Shown: positions 5,376 through 16,443 of the stretch, in pieces
How positions within the stretch are numbered: the first letter of the stretch is position 1
Layout: each line of letters starts with the position of its first letter
Source: a virus
Length of the DNA stretch: 24,159 bases
IMG/VR virus record: IMGVR_UViG_3300022200_003336
Coordinates: 1-24,159 of that record
Strand: one strand, 5' to 3'
Notes under the pieces: model-generated
Told to the model about the DNA's origin: nothing
The model's input: only the letters and a program-made list of their open reading frames with translations
Database searches by the model: none
Translations under genes and position numbers: made by a program

Positions 5376-5689
5376 CACCGGTGGTACGAGACCTGTACAT
5401 CGAAGGCTTTACTAGAAAGAGAATAAGTGAGATGCTAAAAGTAGATCAGGACTTGATAGGTTACATCCTTTACATCCAGCTAAAGATTCACGAGCGGTAC
5501 CCAAGAAAGCAGACTGGAGAGGATCTACTTGAATGCCTACCAAAGGAAAAGGTGGCTAAGATTATAATGCTGGCTTCCTTCGGGTACACCAACAAAGAGA
5601 TTGCGGAGGATCAGGATCTGCCGCACCGGGATGTAAACAAAATAGTTACGGTAGCATTGAAAAAAAAATTAATAAAAAAGTTTTGCTAA
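5348..5689 (+). CDS. helix-turn-helix protein (113 aa)
   Basis: Two segments have helix-turn-helix character: about 13-40 (DLYIEGFTRKRISEMLKVD) and about 75-105 (FGYTNKEIAEDQDLPHRDVN). Each follows the pattern of a helix, a G-[YF]-T-x-K-x-I turn and a recognition helix, as in MerR/sigma region 4-like DNA-binding modules. It is probably a transcription regulator of the early region. It is the last gene before promoter P2, which starts four bases after its stop. Confidence 0.65.
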   Translation: MATCKHEELAPVVRDLYIEGFTRKRISEMLKVDQDLIGYILYIQLKIHERYPRKQTGEDLLECLPKEKVAKIIMLASFGYTNKEIAEDQDLPHRDVNKIVTVALKKKLIKKFC

Positions 5690-5692
5690 ATG

Positions 5693-5722
5693 TTGGAATC
5701 TAAGAAATATGTTATATATTTG
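5693..5722 (+). promoter_or_regulatory. Bacteroidota-type promoter P2 (TTG-N19-TATATTTG)
   Basis: TTG at 5693-5695 and TATATTTG at 5715-5722 are 19 bases apart. The element starts ATGTTGGAAT and ends TTTGAAT exactly like P1. It would drive a short series of tiny genes beginning at 5755. Confidence 0.75.
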
Positions 5723-5754
5723 AATATCAAAACAGCAACACAAAACCAAATCAC

Positions 5755-5892
5755 ATGAAAACTCTAAAATTTAAAACGGCTTTAAAACAGATCCAGCAGG
5801 GAAAAATCGAATGCGTAACCGATCTAAAAATCGGATATGTAGAAATTTTTAACCTTAGCTCAAGAAAAAGAAATTTTATCGAAATAGTTTAA
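5755..5892 (+). CDS. tiny early protein (45 aa)
   Basis: ATG 5755 opens a 45-codon frame (MKTLKFKTALKQIQQGKIEC at the start) and ends FIEIV. It lies 32 bases downstream of promoter P2 and follows an A/C-rich leader (CACAAAACCAAATCAC). The product is basic, with an amphipathic first half and a strand-like second half. No family is recognised. Confidence 0.6.
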   Translation: MKTLKFKTALKQIQQGKIECVTDLKIGYVEIFNLSSRKRNFIEIV

Positions 5893-5903
5893 GTAAAATA
5901 ATC

Positions 5904-6041
5904 ATGAAAAATTTACAAGCAGCCCAAATCATTGATAAAGAACTTTTATCCCTTTACAGCCAAGCTTTAAAGATGATCCCAAATTCATTAGCTCAATTAA
6001 AAGTAAGATCTAGAATTAACGAAATTTTATCAAACAAATAA
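5904..6041 (+). CDS. tiny early helical protein (45 aa)
   Basis: ATG 5904 opens a 45-codon frame starting MKNLQAAQIIDKELLSLYSQ and ending NEILSNK. The whole product looks like two amphipathic helices. It sits 11 bases after the preceding tiny gene and three bases before the next one, in the same apparent transcript from P2. Function unknown. Confidence 0.6.
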   Translation: MKNLQAAQIIDKELLSLYSQALKMIPNSLAQLKVRSRINEILSNK

Positions 6042-6044
6042 CCC

Positions 6045-6314
6045 ATGGAATTTACATCAGTCGCTTACCTCGAAGCCAAAGGAAAATCACTCGTTTGGAT
6101 GGCCTACGCAAATGATTTTGCAGGCGAAGAAATAATGGAGGAGGGATTCAACCCAAATTCAGGATACGTTTACCTCGCTTTAGGAAACGGAACTACGATT
6201 GCTTCTGCATTCGGTCAAGATGTTGAATACATCATTTACGATTTCGAAACGGATGAAGAAATGACCTTCGATTCATTCGAAGAGTTGGAAAATTATTGGA
6301 TCAATCAAAATTAA
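6045..6314 (+). CDS. small acidic protein, unknown function
   Basis: The 89-residue protein is strongly acidic (EEIMEEGFNPNSG, then FETDEEMTFDSFEELENYW near the end), with strands and no membrane segment. Composition and size recall the first early protein at 3744-3995, although no residue-by-residue similarity is clear. An inhibitor or DNA-mimic role is only a guess. It lies in the P2 transcript. Confidence 0.6.
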   Translation: MEFTSVAYLEAKGKSLVWMAYANDFAGEEIMEEGFNPNSGYVYLALGNGTTIASAFGQDVEYIIYDFETDEEMTFDSFEELENYWINQN

Positions 6315-6322
6315 AAACCATC

Positions 6323-6424
6323 ATGAAAAAAGCAGTTCAAATCACAGGCAAAATCCTTTATTTCATCATTGCCTTATCACCAATCTTTGCCCTTGGCTAT
6401 ATGCTAGGGATGAAATTATCATAA
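6323..6424 (+). CDS. tiny membrane peptide (33 aa)
   Basis: ATG 6323 opens a 33-codon frame with a basic start (MKKAVQITGK) and one hydrophobic segment (about 11-30, ILYFIIALSPIFALGYMLGM). Single-pass peptides like this occur in early regions of many phages, often acting on host membrane proteins; no specific role is evident here. It lies nine bases after the preceding gene, in an otherwise unfilled 128-base gap. Confidence 0.55.
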   Translation: MKKAVQITGKILYFIIALSPIFALGYMLGMKLS

Positions 6425-6442
6425 ACCAAAACCAAAAAGCAA

Positions 6443-6742
6443 ATGAAAAATCTAACCTTAAGAACAACCAAGATTGTGGAGGGCACTACGGAAGTGCCTG
6501 AGTACTTTCGAATCAACCACTCTCAGTACTACCGGATAGTCAGCGACAAGACCTATGTATTAGTCTATTTTCACGATTTAAGTAAGAAGGAAATGGAAGC
6601 ATTAACGATCTACCCGGAGATCCAAGTAAGAATGGTAGAGCACCTTTATATCCACGTTCAAGGCAAGGATATTGTTGAGATCACTAAAGAACAATTCACC
6701 GAGCAGTTTGACGCTTGCATGACATTTATCGATCAGCTATGA
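6443..6742 (+). CDS. small protein of unknown function (99 aa)
   Basis: The protein begins MKNLTLRTTKIVEGTTEVPE and alternates predicted strands with a C-terminal helix (ITKEQFTEQFDACMTFIDQL). It has no membrane segment and no recognisable motif. It follows a clear A/C-rich leader (AAACCAAAACCAAAAAGCAA, 6423-6442) and overlaps the next gene by ATGA. Confidence 0.65.
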   Translation: MKNLTLRTTKIVEGTTEVPEYFRINHSQYYRIVSDKTYVLVYFHDLSKKEMEALTIYPEIQVRMVEHLYIHVQGKDIVEITKEQFTEQFDACMTFIDQL

Positions 6743-7235: not shown

Positions 7236-7913
7236 ATGGAAGGAAAAAAATCCTTTGTAATGTATACCGACCAGCGAGAGGTATTTGACGAACTTGATGA
7301 CGTCACGGCTGGTAAATTAATCAAGCACATTTTTGCTTACGTAAATGATGAAGATCCGATTGCGGAAGACCTGCTTTTGAAGGTAGCTTTTTTGCCTATT
7401 AAGACTCAGCTGAAAAGGGACTTAAAGATATGGGATCAAAAGAAGGTACAAAGGGCTGAGGCTGGAAGGAAGGGAGGTCTAGCAAAAGCTAGCAATGCTA
7501 GCGAAGTTCTAGCAAAACCTAGCAATGCTACAAATGAGCTAGCAAACCTAGCTGTAAATGATAATGTAAATGTAAATGGTAATGTAAATGTAATTTCTTC
7601 TATTACTATTTTTAATACTAGCAGGCTAGGAGGTAAAAATCTCTTTGAAGATATGAAACACATTTACGATCTAAATGAAGAGCAAATACAAAAGCTTTAT
7701 CAGGAGTGGAGCCTTACTCACGAGGATCAAACCTTTGAAAGCGAAAGGCATTTAAAAAATAGTTTTATCTTGTTTGTCAAAAATAACGCTAGCAGATTTA
7801 AGCAGGCAAAAAATACCTACAGGCAAAAAGAAGAAAAGCCTAAGGGGAAAAATATTTTTGATGAAATTTATCAAGATTTAAAAAATGAAGAAGAACTAAA
7901 CAAACCAAAATGA
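7236..7913 (+). CDS. DUF6291-like replication-region protein
   Basis: The 225-residue protein has an N-terminal domain (about 1-65, KKSFVMYTDQREVFDELDDV and AGKLIKHIFAYVNDEDP) matching what I recall of DUF6291 proteins of Bacteroidota phages, then a basic AEAGRKGG stretch, a low-complexity Asn/Val/Ala linker (about 83-120), and a C-terminal helical domain (FEDMKHIYDLNEEQIQKLYQ onwards). This layout is like phage initiator or helicase-loader proteins with two domains and a variable linker; the exact role is unproven. ATG 7236 is chosen over TTG 7230. The terminator lies directly upstream, so expression needs read-through or an unusual start of transcription. Confidence 0.72.
   Translation: MEGKKSFVMYTDQREVFDELDDVTAGKLIKHIFAYVNDEDPIAEDLLLKVAFLPIKTQLKRDLKIWDQKKVQRAEAGRKGGLAKASNASEVLAKPSNATNELANLAVNDNVNVNGNVNVISSITIFNTSRLGGKNLFEDMKHIYDLNEEQIQKLYQEWSLTHEDQTFESERHLKNSFILFVKNNASRFKQAKNTYRQKEEKPKGKNIFDEIYQDLKNEEELNKPK
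7481..7603 (+). repeat. low-complexity CTAGC and AATGTA repeats inside the linker
   Basis: About seven CTAGC units occur between 7481 and 7560, several as the palindrome GCTAGC, followed by AATGTAAATG units to about 7593. They encode the Ala-Ser-Asn and Asn-Val linker. Such repeats change length easily by slippage. Confidence 0.75.
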
Positions 7914-8542
7914 TGAAAGGGATAATTTTAACACACCTGCAAAAGATGGAATTTGTATGCGGGCTGAAGCAATTTAAGGAGTATTCAAAAGATGATGGCA
8001 TCCAATTACTGAACTGCCTTAATAAGCTTTTTACTAGCTATGGCTGGATAACTGAGGAGCGAGTCAATTACATCCTTCACGCTGGGATGCGTGGGCAGTA
8101 CGGGGATTTCTACCACGTAAACGAAAAGACCGTGAGCGTATGGATCAATCAATACTACAATCACCACCAAAGTCAAATCGTGCAGGAGGTTCAGGCAAAG
8201 AATACCCAACACCGGGAGCCAACCGAGGAAGAGATTGCGCAATGGATCGAAATCGGCAAGCAGATCTTCCGAGATAATTACCAACACGCAAAGGAAAGCG
8301 GGTTCTGCCGGGATCTATCCGAATGGGGAGGGAACTGGTTTAACAAATTTCAGGAAAAGGGAATCTTAAAGCCTTGGTTGTATCAGGTAGACGAAATCGA
8401 AAAGGATGTCCGTAGGGAATTAAGATTAACTACCCGGTACATAGATGAAGTCACGGTAGGAGCAAAGTCAAAGAATAAAATTTGGAAACTATTTATTTTG
8501 GAATCAATTAAGGAAAACAAAAACCTCGACAAATTAATATGA
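7910..8542 (+). CDS. replication-region protein of unknown function (210 aa)
   Basis: The protein is mainly helical, with a central Trp/Tyr-rich segment (YGDFYHVNEKTVSVWINQYY, about 64-83), an acidic segment (REPTEEEIAQWIEIGKQIF), and a basic C-terminal third. It resembles uncharacterised proteins that follow the DUF6291-like gene in Bacteroidota phages; no catalytic motif is visible. Pairing with the preceding gene by ATGA overlap suggests a joint replication role, such as loader or accessory. The start may be ATG 7910 or the ATG three bases later. Confidence 0.6.
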   Translation: MMKGIILTHLQKMEFVCGLKQFKEYSKDDGIQLLNCLNKLFTSYGWITEERVNYILHAGMRGQYGDFYHVNEKTVSVWINQYYNHHQSQIVQEVQAKNTQHREPTEEEIAQWIEIGKQIFRDNYQHAKESGFCRDLSEWGGNWFNKFQEKGILKPWLYQVDEIEKDVRRELRLTTRYIDEVTVGAKSKNKIWKLFILESIKENKNLDKLI

Positions 8543-8688
8543 AAAAACAAGATCTTTTTAGCGCATCCTCCACTTTGCTTGCCATCTTTGGCTTGATGCA
8601 GGTAGACATCTCAAACCTATTTTTATTCTTGGTGCTGGTGGCTTTGTACACGATCGCAATGGACTTCGTATATAAGGCTTGCAAATGA
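8539..8688 (+). CDS. small membrane protein (49 aa)
   Basis: ATG 8539 overlaps the previous stop (ATGA), and its own stop overlaps the RusA gene start in the same way. The product starts MKKQDLFSASSTLLAIFGLM and has one or two hydrophobic segments (about 10-41). Its STLLAIF segment matches the holin-like protein at 543-743, with 19 of 22 identical bases. It may be a paralogue or share a membrane-insertion signal. Function unknown. Confidence 0.65.
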   Translation: MKKQDLFSASSTLLAIFGLMQVDISNLFLFLVLVALYTIAMDFVYKACK

Positions 8689-9026
8689 TTCAATTTAAGC
8701 TTAACGAGAAGCCCTTGAGTGTTAACCTAGCTTGGCAGGGTAAACGCTTTAAAACGCCAGCATACAAGGCCTACGAAAAAACGATTTTATTAATGATGCC
8801 GAGGGCAAAAATAGATCCAAAGCAGATGTTAAGAATCGAGTTTTTTTTCGGCTTCAGCAACAAGGCCAGCGATCTAGATAACCCAGTCAAGCTCCTGCTG
8901 GATATCGCACAAAAGAAGTACGGCTTTAATGACTCAAACGTATTTGAGTTAAATGTCCGTAAATGCATCGTAAAAAAAGGGGATGATTTTATTCACATAG
9001 GGATCTACCCGATGTTACCTTTTTAA
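8685..9026 (+). CDS. rusA: RusA-family Holliday junction resolvase
   Basis: From ATG 8685 the 113-residue product matches RusA-type endonucleases, which cut four-way DNA junctions. Key features are the basic N-terminal region (NLAWQGKRFKTPAYKAYEKT), the metal-binding acidic motif SDLDNPVKLLLDIAQ (62-76, with Asp63 and Asp65) and FNDSNV with Asp83. Length fits the family (about 100-130). It would resolve recombination or replication intermediates before packaging, alongside the ERF protein. ATG 8685 is preferred over TTG 8679 because it gives an ATGA overlap. Confidence 0.9.
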   Translation: MIQFKLNEKPLSVNLAWQGKRFKTPAYKAYEKTILLMMPRAKIDPKQMLRIEFFFGFSNKASDLDNPVKLLLDIAQKKYGFNDSNVFELNVRKCIVKKGDDFIHIGIYPMLPF

Positions 9027-11291: not shown

Positions 11292-11859
11292 AACCGTAAA
11301 ATTATCTGAGGTCAAAACCAATCCTAATAACCCTCGGATTATCAAGGACGATAAATTTAGCAAGCTGGTAAAGTCTATTCAGGAGTTCCCTAAGATGCTG
11401 GAGATACGGCCGATAGTGGTGAACGCTGACATGATCGTGCTAGGTGGTAACATGAGGCTAAAAGCTTGCAAAGAAGCCGGGCTTAAAGAGGTGCCAATAA
11501 TCTTTGCCGATGATCTCACAGAAGATGAGCAAAGGCAGTTTATCATCAAAGATAACGTAGGCTTTGGTGAATGGGATTGGGATATGCTAGCAAACGAATG
11601 GGAGCCTGAGGAGCTTGAAACTTGGGGCCTTACAGTTCCTAATTGGGGTGAAGCTCCTGATTATTCTATTTTAGATGGGGAAGATGTAAGCGATCAAATG
11701 GATGAGATGAGCAACGGAGTTAAAAAAGCAATTCAAATTGAATTTGAGCCTGAGCATTATGAAGAAGCATTTGAGCTTGTAAAGTTTTGGAGAGAGCAAG
11801 GAGCATACGTTGGGGCTATGATAGTTGAATACTTAAAAGCAGAAAAACATAAATTGTAA
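11281..11859 (+). CDS. ParB N-terminal domain protein
   Basis: The 192-residue protein has the ParB/Srx-type domain: VKLSEVKTNPNNPRI (6-20), PIVVNADMIVLGGNMRLKAC (44-63, including the GGNxR-type motif), EVPIIFADDLTEDEQ and then FGEWDWDML. The rest (about 147-192) is an acidic helical tail. Phage members of this family have been described as DNA-binding proteins or nucleases and often stand next to DNA-modifying enzymes. Here it directly precedes the modification cassette by a one-base overlap. Base use becomes more AT-rich toward its 3' end (from about 11640). Confidence 0.85.
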   Translation: MEIKTVKLSEVKTNPNNPRIIKDDKFSKLVKSIQEFPKMLEIRPIVVNADMIVLGGNMRLKACKEAGLKEVPIIFADDLTEDEQRQFIIKDNVGFGEWDWDMLANEWEPEELETWGLTVPNWGEAPDYSILDGEDVSDQMDEMSNGVKKAIQIEFEPEHYEEAFELVKFWREQGAYVGAMIVEYLKAEKHKL

Positions 11860-12470
11860 TGTGTTCTATAATTGCAGTTTCCGGTAGCTGGGACGAAGAG
11901 ATTGTTAAACAGATAATAAAAAACTCAAGAATAAGAGGGCTTCATAGTTTTGGATATTCATTTGTTAAAAAAAATCAAATCTATAATTTAAAATTTATTG
12001 ACTATAAAAAATTTATACAATCACTGATTGAAAAAAAACCCAAAAAGTTTATTGCACATTTTCGCTATTCAACTAGTGGTGATTGGAAAGTTATTGAAAA
12101 TAATCAGCCAATTTTTTTAAATGATTTTTGTCTTGCCTTCAATGGAGTTATAGACATGAGTTCAAAAACTGAAATGGAAAATAAATTTGATATTAAAATG
12201 GAGACTGAAAACGATGGTGAGATTGCAATTATAAAATACAAACAAGGCAAGGATTCATTTTTAAATTTTATCAACGAAAATAAACGGACTTTTGCTGGGG
12301 TTTTTCTAAATAAAGAAAATCAAATAACTGCAATCAAAAATAATCTTAGGCCTTTGTCTATTTCAAAAGATAAACATGCTACGTATTTAGCAAGCACTTC
12401 AGATATTTTGTCAAGAAGTGGATTAAAAAGCTACGAGAAATTGAAACCTAATAAATTTTATGAAATTTAG
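11859..12470 (+). CDS. class II glutamine amidotransferase domain protein
   Basis: The 203-residue product starts MCSI, so Cys2 becomes the N-terminal nucleophile after Met removal, as in class II (Ntn) amidotransferases. Other matching parts are HFRYSTSGD (67-75), FLNDFCLAFNGVID (86-99) and ENDGE (117-121), corresponding to the glutamine-binding segments of PurF/GlmS. It ends after the glutaminase domain: no synthetase, phosphoribosyltransferase or isomerase domain follows. It would release ammonia from glutamine or hydrolyse a glutamyl amide. In this cassette it could supply nitrogen to, or trim, a modified base. The gene is very AT-rich. Confidence 0.85.
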   Translation: MCSIIAVSGSWDEEIVKQIIKNSRIRGLHSFGYSFVKKNQIYNLKFIDYKKFIQSLIEKKPKKFIAHFRYSTSGDWKVIENNQPIFLNDFCLAFNGVIDMSSKTEMENKFDIKMETENDGEIAIIKYKQGKDSFLNFINENKRTFAGVFLNKENQITAIKNNLRPLSISKDKHATYLASTSDILSRSGLKSYEKLKPNKFYEI

Positions 12471-12864: not shown

Positions 12865-13682
12865 GCTATACGGATTACCATAATCATTCAATGCAAGCCA
12901 AAGATGTTGATCCTTCTGTGATTTGTTTGAAGTATTTGGCTGACAGGTTTGAATTGAATTTATCCCAAAGGTATTGGATTTCTTTTTTATACGGAACTAA
13001 TTATTGTGCCACAACCACATTTTTAATGTATAATGAATTTCCTGATTTTGAATTAGTTGATTTGAAACGAATGCAAAATTGGTGGGATAGAAACAAAGAA
13101 AAATTAATATTCCAAACAGATCGCCTAAGGGTAAAAACAGGTAATGGTTTTATCCCTGCATTCGTTAGTTATAAAAATTTAGTAAAATCTTCTCAAGAAA
13201 AATATTTCAATGATTCAAAGGATTGGAAAGACTGCTACTCAAAAATAACTTCTATTAAAAATTTCGGCAGATTTAGCACCTTCAATTATCTTGATGTGTT
13301 AAACCAAATAACCTCAACCATCCATTCGCCTACATATTTGAATATGCTTGAGGCTGAAAGTTGTAGGAATGGAATTTGTTTTGCAATAGGAAAAGAAGAT
13401 TGGATTGACCAAAAATTGACAAAAGAAAAAGCAGTTCATTTACATAATGTTTTTTTGAATTTGTTAAAAACTCACGAAGGAAATATTTATCAAATTGAAA
13501 CCACCTTGTGTGCATATAAAAAATACAGACTTGGTAAAAGATATGTTGGTTACTATATTGAACGCATGAGGAAAGAAATAGATACTATGGAGAAGCGATT
13601 CCCTGATGGGGTAGCCTGGGAAACATTATGGCAATTCAGAGAAGAGACATTTGAAAAAAAATATTTAAAAGAATTTAGTTAA
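12852..13682 (+). CDS. probable amino acid:DNA transferase (alpha-glutamyl/putrescinyl thymine pyrophosphorylase-like)
   Basis: The 276-residue protein resembles, from memory, the phage transferases that displace the pyrophosphate of activated 5-hydroxymethyl-dU with an amino compound. Recognised features are KNFGRFSTFNYLDVL (136-150), AESCRNGICFAIGKEDW (168-184), ETTLCAYKKYRLGKRYVGYY (216-235) and a final WETLWQFREE (256-265). The fold is expected to be related to HhH DNA glycosylases. Context is strong: kinase and TET/JBP oxygenase genes follow directly. Substrate (amino acid, polyamine or ammonia) cannot be read from sequence. Confidence 0.8.
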   Translation: MGHVSYTDYHNHSMQAKDVDPSVICLKYLADRFELNLSQRYWISFLYGTNYCATTTFLMYNEFPDFELVDLKRMQNWWDRNKEKLIFQTDRLRVKTGNGFIPAFVSYKNLVKSSQEKYFNDSKDWKDCYSKITSIKNFGRFSTFNYLDVLNQITSTIHSPTYLNMLEAESCRNGICFAIGKEDWIDQKLTKEKAVHLHNVFLNLLKTHEGNIYQIETTLCAYKKYRLGKRYVGYYIERMRKEIDTMEKRFPDGVAWETLWQFREETFEKKYLKEFS

Positions 13683-14161
13683 TGACAATTTTGTTAATTG
13701 GATATTGTGGAAGTGGGAAAACTTGGGTAATGAAAAACCTAATAAAACATCACGATTTAAATTTAAAAGCTAAAACGAAATTAATTCATTTTAGAACTAA
13801 TAAAAAAATATGCGTTCTTGGCAATTATGATGGAAGCGTTTTTGAAGGAGGAGACAAATTATCAATGGCTGTTAGTTTAGATTTTCAAAACTTTAAAAAG
13901 ATAAAAGATAAGGAAAATTTTATAGTGATTTGTGAAGGAGATAGATTTATGAATCAAAATTTTATAAAAACATTTAATCCTTTTATAATTAAGATTCAAG
14001 ATAATGGCGAAATGGGTAGAAAAGCAAGAGGATCAAATCAAACCCAAAGACATCTTACGTCAATTCAAACTAGAGTAAACAATATTAAAGAAAATAGGAT
14101 AGTTAAAAATAGCAATGAAGCTTTATCACTAATAAATCAAATAATAAATGAAACGAATTGA
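13682..14161 (+). CDS. P-loop kinase, probable 5-hydroxymethyl-dU DNA kinase
   Basis: The 159-residue protein has a Walker A loop GYCGSGKT (7-14), the segment GNYDGSVFEGGDKLSMAV (47-64), an acidic EGDRFM (85-90) in the place of Walker B, and a basic lid-like RKARGSNQTQRH (113-124). The YDG-x-x-FxGGDKLSM and EGDR motifs match what I recall of phage 5-hydroxymethyluracil DNA kinases, which phosphorylate the hydroxymethyl group in DNA. It overlaps the transferase by one base and the oxygenase by 14 bases. A general nucleotide kinase is the alternative but would not explain these motifs. Confidence 0.83.
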   Translation: MTILLIGYCGSGKTWVMKNLIKHHDLNLKAKTKLIHFRTNKKICVLGNYDGSVFEGGDKLSMAVSLDFQNFKKIKDKENFIVICEGDRFMNQNFIKTFNPFIIKIQDNGEMGRKARGSNQTQRHLTSIQTRVNNIKENRIVKNSNEALSLINQIINETN

Positions 14162-14942
14162 TCTTGTTAAAATAGACCATGATCGGAAGATCGGTGAGGT
14201 TTGCGAATACATTGAACCAAATGTTATTGAAGATTGTGTTTTTTATTCAGAGGGTGAGCCGATTGGATTTTACTTAACCAAAATGCCTGAAAAAATGTGC
14301 AAGTTAGCAGATTTGGCAAACGCAGAATTAAGAAGTAAAAATGTGCCAAAGTCAAATATGAATAGAAGTGATGCCGTAAAGAAATTTATGGAAGGAGGAA
14401 TGTCAGAAATGAAAAAAGGAGTTTCTCAGTATTCAACAATTATTGGCTCAACTCCTCCAAGACCTCACATGAGAAGGCCATACCCTTCTATATCTTCAGT
14501 TCATGGAGTAAAGACAGCCCAAACTTTTATAAAAGCTATGCTTTTGCTTGCAAGGGAAAGTGAAGAGTTAATTAAACAAATACTTCCAGAACAATATGAA
14601 AGGCAAGTAAAGGTTTTTTCTGATGTTCCTGAAAAATGGAGATTCGCAAATTTATTTACTAGCTCTATTTCAAACTACAATATTCCTGCTCCTTTTCATA
14701 GAGACACTGGAAACATAGTTGGGGCTGTAAATGTCATTATTTGCAAAAAGCAAAATTCAAAAGGAGGTGATCTCCACATTCCTGATTACAATGCGACAAT
14801 AGGACAAAGAGATAATTCAATTTTAGTTTACCCGGCTTGGAGGAACGTACACGGGGTTACCCCGATTGTGCCAACTCACGAAGGAGGGTACCGGAACAGT
14901 CTAGTTTTTTACCCGTTGAAAGCATTTAAAGGACTTGAATAA
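14148..14942 (+). CDS. TET/JBP-type 2-oxoglutarate/Fe(II) dioxygenase
   Basis: The 264-residue enzyme shows the double-stranded beta-helix iron site: His184 and Asp186 in FHRDTGN, His235 in NVHGVTPI, and the 2-oxoglutarate-binding Arg249 in GGYRNSLVFYPL. GGDLHIPDYN (206-215) and HGVTPI are typical of phage TET/JBP proteins, which hydroxylate the methyl group of thymine or 5-methylcytosine in DNA. The N-terminal part (VSQYSTIIG, PPRPHMRRPYPSISSVH) also fits phage members. It ends the cassette, 18 bases before the small terminase gene. Base composition turns GC-richer in its last 115 bases. Confidence 0.9.
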   Translation: MKRIDLVKIDHDRKIGEVCEYIEPNVIEDCVFYSEGEPIGFYLTKMPEKMCKLADLANAELRSKNVPKSNMNRSDAVKKFMEGGMSEMKKGVSQYSTIIGSTPPRPHMRRPYPSISSVHGVKTAQTFIKAMLLLARESEELIKQILPEQYERQVKVFSDVPEKWRFANLFTSSISNYNIPAPFHRDTGNIVGAVNVIICKKQNSKGGDLHIPDYNATIGQRDNSILVYPAWRNVHGVTPIVPTHEGGYRNSLVFYPLKAFKGLE

Positions 14943-14960
14943 TTATCAAAATTCAACACT

Positions 14961-15296
14961 ATGAAAAAGCCTGAAGTATCAGTAATCGAGAAAGCCATTG
15001 TGAAGTCATTTGGGAACCTTTCTACGGCCGCAAGGTCTTTGCAGGTAGATAGAGCCACCCTTTACAAATGGATCGAGCAGGAGGGCCTAGAACAGGCCGT
15101 AATCGAAGGCAGGAATACGAGGCTAGATTTTGTTGAAAGCAAACTTGATCAGAAGATAGATAGCGGTGATACCACTGCCATTATTTTCTTTCTCAAGACT
15201 CAAGGTAAAAGCCGAGGATACATCGAACGTCAAGAGGTAACCGGGGCCGATGGCAAAAAACTATTCGAGGTGACCATTGTAGATGGAACTGATTAA
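14961..15296 (+). CDS. terS: terminase small subunit (HTH type)
   Basis: The 111-residue protein has an N-terminal HTH (SVIEKAIVKSFGNLSTAARS and LQVDRATLYKWIEQEGLEQA, about 7-46), and a helical oligomerisation region ending GKSRGYIERQEVTGADGKK. This Fis-like HTH and RGY-x-ER-x-E ending are typical of small terminases that recognise the packaging site. It overlaps the large subunit gene by 14 bases. Confidence 0.83.
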   Translation: MKKPEVSVIEKAIVKSFGNLSTAARSLQVDRATLYKWIEQEGLEQAVIEGRNTRLDFVESKLDQKIDSGDTTAIIFFLKTQGKSRGYIERQEVTGADGKKLFEVTIVDGTD

Positions 15297-16443
15297 GCTA
15301 AAAACCAACAAAGTATTTAAGCAGCTTGAAACCTCCACGGCTAAAATTGTAGTTCAGCAGGGAGGCACGAGATCAGGGAAGACCTTCAATATTTTACTTT
15401 GGATTATTTTTTCGTACTGCGAAAGAAATGAGGGTAAGATCATAACCATTTGCCGCAAGTCATTCCCAGCCTTAAGGGGTACTGTGATGCGTGACTTTTT
15501 TCAGATCATTAAAGACCACGAGATCTACACCGAAGAAGCGCACTCCAAGACTGCCAACGAATACACAATAAATAAAAATACAATCGAGTTTATTTCTTTG
15601 GATATGCCTCAGAAGATCAGGGGCCGCAAGAGGGATCTACTATTTGCAAACGAGGCCAATGAGTTAACGCAGGAGGATTGGACTCAGCTACTTTTTAGAA
15701 CCAATGAAAAGGTGATTTTAGACTACAACCCATCTGAAGAATTCCATTGGATTTATGATCAGGTGCTACCTAGAAAGGATGTCGACTTCTTTCAAACCAC
15801 TTACAAGGATAACCCATTTTTAGGCGATGTAATCAAAGAAGAAATCGAAAGGCTTAGAGGGGTAGATGAAAACTACTGGAGGGTGTACGGCCTCGGAGAA
15901 AGGGGTACTGCTAGATCCTTGGTATATACTTTCACCACCTGCAAAGAAATCCCAACGGAAGCGAAGCTTGTAAGCTACGGCCTTGACTTTGGTTACTCAT
16001 CAGATCCGACATCCTTGGTTCGCACGTATCTTTTAGAGGACAATATGTACGTGGACGAATTGCTTTACCGCACCGGGATGACCAACCAAGACATCGCAAA
16101 TGAGATGAAGGTGTTGGGCCTTGACAGGAGTAACGAGATCTATGCGGATTCAGCTGAGCCAAAAAGTATAGAGGAGATTTACCGGATGGGCTGGAATGTA
16201 AAGCCAACAATTAAGGGATCAATCAACATAGGGATAGACATCATCCGAAGATATAAGCTTCACGCAACCGAAAGCAGTTTTAACCTGATCAAGGAGCTGC
16301 GTAACTACAAATACATCGAGGACAAAAACGGGCACATGACTAACAAGCCGGTTGACAATTTTAACCACGCATTGGATGCCCTGCGCTATTCGGTAGTAAA
16401 CAAGATTTCGCAAAGCCATTTGGGTCGCTACTCCTTCAGATAA
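15283..16443 (+). CDS. terL: terminase large subunit
   Basis: The 386-residue protein has a packaging ATPase domain with Walker A GGTRSGKT (27-34), Walker B-like LLFANEAN (119-126), and the coupling segment LDYNPSEEFHWIYDQVL. The C-terminal nuclease of RNase H fold shows Asp235 in LDFGYSSDP, Asp289 in ADSAEP, and His362/Asp365 in NHALDALRYS. It pumps DNA into the prohead and cuts the concatemer. No portal or capsid gene follows it in this window, which is unusual. Length is near the low end for the family. Confidence 0.95.
   Translation: MELIKLKTNKVFKQLETSTAKIVVQQGGTRSGKTFNILLWIIFSYCERNEGKIITICRKSFPALRGTVMRDFFQIIKDHEIYTEEAHSKTANEYTINKNTIEFISLDMPQKIRGRKRDLLFANEANELTQEDWTQLLFRTNEKVILDYNPSEEFHWIYDQVLPRKDVDFFQTTYKDNPFLGDVIKEEIERLRGVDENYWRVYGLGERGTARSLVYTFTTCKEIPTEAKLVSYGLDFGYSSDPTSLVRTYLLEDNMYVDELLYRTGMTNQDIANEMKVLGLDRSNEIYADSAEPKSIEEIYRMGWNVKPTIKGSINIGIDIIRRYKLHATESSFNLIKELRNYKYIEDKNGHMTNKPVDNFNHALDALRYSVVNKISQSHLGRYSFR

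Follow-up and report, generated by a model that had tools for sequence, protein, structure and literature searches.

A putative post-replicative DNA hypermodification cassette in a phage genome fragment, with a TET/JBP dioxygenase as the likely entry enzyme

The window analysed here, a 24,159-base linear virus record (IMG/VR IMGVR_UViG_3300022200_003336) taken at its whole length, is a fragment of its genome. It contains a run of six genes for a ParB protein, a class-II amidotransferase, a GNAT protein, an amino acid:DNA transferase (ADDT), a kinase and a TET dioxygenase, and two terminase genes come next (Table 1). An earlier note on this DNA had singled out the kinase and TET genes (13682-14942), which overlap by 14 bases. 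Both open reading frames and their overlap were confirmed, but that interval misses the ADDT, GNAT, amidotransferase and ParB genes upstream. The overlap is not unique within the run, since the ParB/amidotransferase, amidotransferase/GNAT, GNAT/ADDT and ADDT/kinase pairs abut or overlap too. GC content drops to 28.7% in the slot that separates ParB from TET, close to the window minimum, against 39.8% for the whole window. A scan of the window for promoters and terminators gave matches at chance level.

Table 1. Coordinates of the cassette and neighbouring features in the window
Feature	Coordinates	Strand	Evidence or remark
Empty spot in the window; the relative L005 has a C5 methyltransferase here	8543..8678	.	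flanking homologues
ParB_N-domain protein, 192 aa	11281..11859	+	PF02195 4.3e-8; constant TET neighbour
Class-II glutamine-amidotransferase-like protein, 203 aa, starts Met-Cys	11859..12470	+	slot gene
GNAT-like acetyltransferase, 134 aa	12460..12864	+	slot gene; weak GNAT matches
ADDT (amino acid:DNA transferase), 276 aa	12852..13682	+	PF18724 2.6e-12; slot gene
P-loop base kinase (putative), 159 aa, distant 5-hmdU DNA kinase relative	13682..14161	+	slot gene
TET/JBP dioxygenase, 264 aa	14148..14942	+	PF12851 3.7e-10
Terminase small (14961-15296) and large (15283-16443) subunits	14961..16443	+	PF04466 9.7e-17 (large); synteny

The TET protein matched the Tet_JBP family (PF12851) with 39.7 bits, above the curated cut-off of 34.9. 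The iron ligands of the HxD...H motif (H184-x-D186 and H235) and the 2OG-binding arginine R249 are invariant in a 39-row TET alignment. The AlphaFold model (pLDDT 89.9) was most similar to TET2 (Z 19.2), NgTET1 (Z 18.7), CcTet and CMD1, and AlkB and FTO ranked behind these. Three residues after the Asp of HxD the window TET has a base-reading Asn which aligns with TET2, a 5mC enzyme. The residue after the motif is Asn in the window clade and in the actinophages, and Asp in the clade of Methylophilales phage Melnitz. We rejected this Asn/Asp difference as a discriminator between thymine and cytosine because TET2 has Asn, and because Asp is also found in HTVC112P, P12024L, DLP_6 and Cr30, phages free of a C5 methyltransferase. 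As modelled, the fold and active-site residues of the window TET do not decide between thymine and 5mC. The family (PHROG 6059) carries the misleading name 'queuine tRNA-ribosyltransferase', which is used in public records too.

The window kinase had no Pfam match above cut-off: PF18751 (Ploopntkinase3) reached 11.4 bits against 27, and PF18748 did not match. It matched PHROG 800 (1.5e-5), which also contains M6 gp054 and ViI 061, both 5-hmdU DNA kinases by Pfam. When the window kinase was compared with M6 gp054 by HHalign (probability 95.8, E 7e-9), the common motifs extended beyond the P-loop. An iterated HMM seeded with the window kinase placed the kinase of Melnitz in one family with the Ploopntkinase3 proteins of actinophages, and the closest homologue from an isolate sits in a C5-methyltransferase-TET operon of a Melnitz-type phage. 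The structural model (pLDDT 90.8) has an NMP/uridine-kinase fold with a best Z of 11.8. The protein is a homologue of the known 5-hmdU DNA kinases, but no more than a distant one. PHROG 800, the 5-hmdU kinase family, is misnamed 'terminase small subunit', a name also found in public records.

For the ADDT, PF18724 gave 47.4 bits against a cut-off of 26.2. The protein matched 377 phage records, and the best rows were ViI-type phages with about 28% identity over 94%. Its G139 and ET..C motif are common to M6 gp051 and an Ackermannvirid ADDT. ADDTs are known from the 5hmdU-derived bases of M6 and ViI. The amidotransferase-like protein matched TIGR01134 (purF, 2.4e-10), below the equivalog cut-off, and the PHROG glutamine amidotransferase (1.7e-7). 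Elsewhere its gene was found only in three TET-bearing loci (L002, L011 and L069), and the same loci have the GNAT-like gene, whose matches are weak (Pfam 0.02, PHROG 0.005). The ParB family is present in 74 of the 81 TET-bearing loci; its role as a DNA-targeting factor is a guess.

ParB, TET and terminase are constant in about 80 relatives, with the terminase subunits as syntenic neighbours downstream of TET, whereas different genes occupy the interval from ParB to TET. This slot contains a TET-associated glycosyltransferase (TAGT, PF20691) in 35 cases, an FkbM methyltransferase in 30, ADDT and kinase in 7, a kinase alone in 4 and GT301 (301 aa, family unrecognised) in another 4. Examples with TAGT, the FkbM methyltransferase or the 301-aa protein are L004 3576-4301, L008 8058-8753 and L025 1790-2695. 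On the TET tree, which is a quick tree with SH-aLRT support only and many weak branches, at least 22 slot changes are needed (shuffled mean 35.8). The ADDT and kinase combination alone needs 6 changes, 4 of them forced by starred branches. Besides one identical protein, the TETs nearest to that of the window are accompanied by slots with TAGT or a different ADDT and kinase. L063 and L075 have a second, different ADDT-kinase pair, and L075 also encodes an FAD-like protein related to the one in the Rhodococcus phage Tonitrus and the Gordonia phage CloverMinnie. The simplest explanation for a slot that is swapped while TET stays is that the TET product, a hydroxymethyl group on a DNA pyrimidine, is shared. 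The pattern fits an exchangeable finishing module behind TET as a fixed entry step.

The kinase directly adjoins TET in separate lineages, namely the window type, L166-L170 (ParB-kinase-TET), L171/L172, and the actinophages Terij and Nigel. The ADDT stands between the two in CloverMinnie and Tonitrus. L166, L167 and L168 have kinases with about 51-54% identity to that of the window, and in each of them the kinase and TET genes again share 14 bases. These three loci (L166 430-2238, L167 2005-3816, L168 4147-6027) are minimal sets of ParB, kinase and TET in whose surroundings no ADDT was recognised, and their end product may be a phosphorylated base.

The earlier note had seen neither a hydroxymethylase nor a C5 methyltransferase among the genes of the window, and our profile searches agreed, with no PF00303 or PF00145 match. 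It had also weighed a dUMP hydroxymethylase elsewhere in the genome against its own idea. The thymidylate-synthase-like hydroxymethylase profile (PF00303) found none in the 34 window-clade relatives, none in five related complete isolate genomes and none in 11 further IMG/VR records, some of these counted before. As a positive control, the ViI hydroxymethylase was found at 7.9e-16, and the search also found a synthase-family gene in Cr30. ThyX was absent from all 14 records searched, and DNA polymerase A or B was found neither in the window nor in 21 relatives. The complete genomes of the actinophages Tonitrus and CloverMinnie have ParB, TET, ADDT and kinase, and lack both PF00303 and PF00145. 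G004 (32.8 kb) is a circularly permuted relative of the window, except for a variable tail gene. The roughly 8 kb that the window lacks could be read from it and contain tape measure, protease-like, probable capsid and portal genes. We therefore largely rejected the missing hydroxymethylase as an effect of the fragment: G004 fills the gap with head and tail genes, and near-complete relatives and complete isolate genomes are also without PF00303. In the Caulobacter phage Cr30 (L188 4326-9489), TET lies near an ADDT-like protein and a thymidylate-synthase-family gene is elsewhere in the genome. This means that TET and the nucleotide-pool route may coexist.

A C5 methyltransferase elsewhere was the other gene that the note had counted against itself, and here the result was divided. 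PF00145 was absent from the window, the spot at 8543..8678 included, from 29 of the 34 window-clade records and from Tonitrus and CloverMinnie, but it was present in the other 5 records, in some as a partial match, and in L011 as a sixth carrier. L005, with a TET 94% identical to that of the window, and L011, with the same cassette, combine ADDT and kinase with a non-adjacent C5 methyltransferase. The L005 gene (3155-3955) lies between homologues of window positions 7910-8542 and 8679-9026, where the window has 136 bases. Its 266-aa open reading frame covers PF00145 positions 1-187 only and is overlapped by one in another frame, so the enzyme is possibly truncated or degenerate. The L011 site is not comparable with the window because the region upstream of ParB is not syntenic. 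A C5 methyltransferase adjoins TET in 64 of 72 Melnitz-clade TETs versus 0 of 82 in the window clade. As an obligate TET partner in the window clade it was rejected, given the 29 of 34 records without it and an adjacency that is never seen. The PHROG label 'DNA methyltransferase' on G004 5677-6714 was also rejected; the match is a stretch shared with head maturation proteases, with no PF00145. The Melnitz operon (L092 4010-8090) comprises a C5 methyltransferase, TET, a 427-aa unknown protein and a homologue of the window kinase, and its gene content suggests the same logic applied to cytosine.

What the sequences show is the gene content, the protein families and their folds, the catalytic residues, the lack of a hydroxymethylase and the swapping of the slot. 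Our preferred reading, with a probability of about 0.65, is a post-replicative hypermodification cassette in which TET acts first and thymine is oxidised in finished DNA. The phage genome would probably be copied by the host replisome with ordinary dTTP. TET would then oxidise the methyl group of thymine, the presumed substrate, to 5-hydroxymethyl-dU. The P-loop kinase would phosphorylate the resulting hydroxyl and the ADDT would swap the phosphate for an amino acid, in this presumed order and with a presumed final base. The GNAT and amidotransferase proteins would probably trim the appended group, e.g. by acetylating or amidating it. ParB may recruit the enzymes to DNA. TET-first oxidation that feeds a base kinase, as the earlier note had it, is thus still the best reading, while its choice of thymine over 5mC is not settled. 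We favour thymine as the probable, not proven, substrate base because there is no linked methyltransferase, because ADDTs are known from 5hmdU-derived bases and because Tonitrus and CloverMinnie, with TET, ADDT and kinase, are without either entry enzyme. The L005 and L011 methyltransferases, the presence of the kinase family in C5-methyltransferase-TET operons and the uninformative active site keep this from being settled.

These last points would also suit a TET that oxidises 5mC from a host or phage methyltransferase, with the kinase and ADDT acting on 5-hydroxymethylcytosine. The TET2-like Asn after HxD agrees with this, host methylation could provide the 5mC, and the phage TETs with biochemical proof of activity are those that act on 5mC (Burke 2021, cited in PMC12730594). 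We nevertheless consider it unlikely. A C5 methyltransferase is missing from the window, even at the spot equivalent to that of L005, and from most relatives, and it never adjoins TET in this clade. Tonitrus and CloverMinnie combine TET, ADDT and kinase without it, and the window ADDT resembles those of M6/ViI-type phages, which decorate 5-hydroxymethyluracil.

It is very improbable that 5hmdUMP is made before replication by a host or unrecognised enzyme, with TET oxidising, for example, the appended group. The classical M6 and ViI systems do operate through the nucleotide pool and Cr30 unites TET, an ADDT-like protein and a PF00303 gene, but neither PF00303 (relatives and actinophages) nor ThyX (14 records) was found, the window and 21 relatives have no phage polymerase A or B, and TET is retained even where a glycosyltransferase replaces ADDT in the slot. 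Least probable to us is that kinase and TET belong to separate pathways, with a nucleotide kinase placed there by coincidence. The recurrence of the kinase next to TET in several separate lineages and its motifs in common with M6 gp054 beyond the P-loop speak against this, although the kinase fold is a general one (UCK, GMPK, shikimate kinase) and the sequence is only weakly similar to 5-hmdU kinases.

Iyer et al. 2013 reportedly predicted that TET/JBP enzymes have roles in phage operons of this kind. The idea that TET acts first is not new and is already in print for Tonitrus, where ParB, TET, aGPT-Pplase2/ADDT and kinase were called a possible thymidine hypermodification system (PMC11955845). 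A test-tube demonstration has probably not been reported, as far as could be checked. Like the window, Tonitrus and CloverMinnie have ParB, TET, ADDT and a P-loop kinase upstream of the terminase. They differ in an FAD/oxidoreductase-like gene that replaces the amidotransferase and GNAT genes and in the order TET-ADDT-kinase, and their TETs are only about 26-32% identical to that of the window. Pseudomonas phage M6 and Salmonella phage ViI share related ADDT and 5-hmdU DNA kinase families with the window, but they have a thymidylate-synthase-like entry gene and phage DNA polymerases (M6 gp058, gp062; also in ViI), and the window clade has neither of these. The Melnitz-type operons share a TET/JBP enzyme and a related kinase; unlike in the window clade, the C5 methyltransferase overlaps or adjoins TET and Asp, not Asn, follows HxD.

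In kinetoplastids, the dioxygenase JBP oxidises thymine in DNA and the hydroxymethyl group is then decorated to give base J (PMC12730594), which is like the route proposed for the phage. Base J is made with a glucosyltransferase, whereas the window has kinase and ADDT and no glycosyltransferase recognised in its slot; close relatives carry TAGT in the same slot. The earlier note had also expected sequence-selective rather than global modification. This was unsupported by the sequence. Phages with global 5hmdU already show a TG/TC preference in the later hypermodification, which was attributed to the kinase (PMC6449724; PMC11347163).

In the literature examined, we did not find in print the controlled absence test, the swappable slot, the amidotransferase-GNAT-ADDT-kinase version or the minimal ParB-kinase-TET sets. 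The same logic is found in isolates with complete genomes (CloverMinnie, Tonitrus, Nigel, Terij and MED4-184), so the question of thymine versus 5mC can be tested directly by mass spectrometry. A wider and rather doubtful possibility is that TET is a universal thymine entry enzyme for interchangeable modules (glycosyltransferase, FkbM, kinase alone, or kinase with ADDT and trimming). Phages with near-identical TETs would then bear chemically different thymines, and the minimal sets of L166-L170, Nigel and Terij would end in a phosphorylated, charged base. If the preferred TET-first reading is true, enzymatic oxidation of thymine in DNA would feed a kinase and amino-acid pathway, in contrast to glucosylation in kinetoplastids. 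Hypermodification of thymine would then be open to small phages that encode neither a polymerase nor nucleotide-pool enzymes, and the swappable slot would be a catalogue of finishing chemistries.
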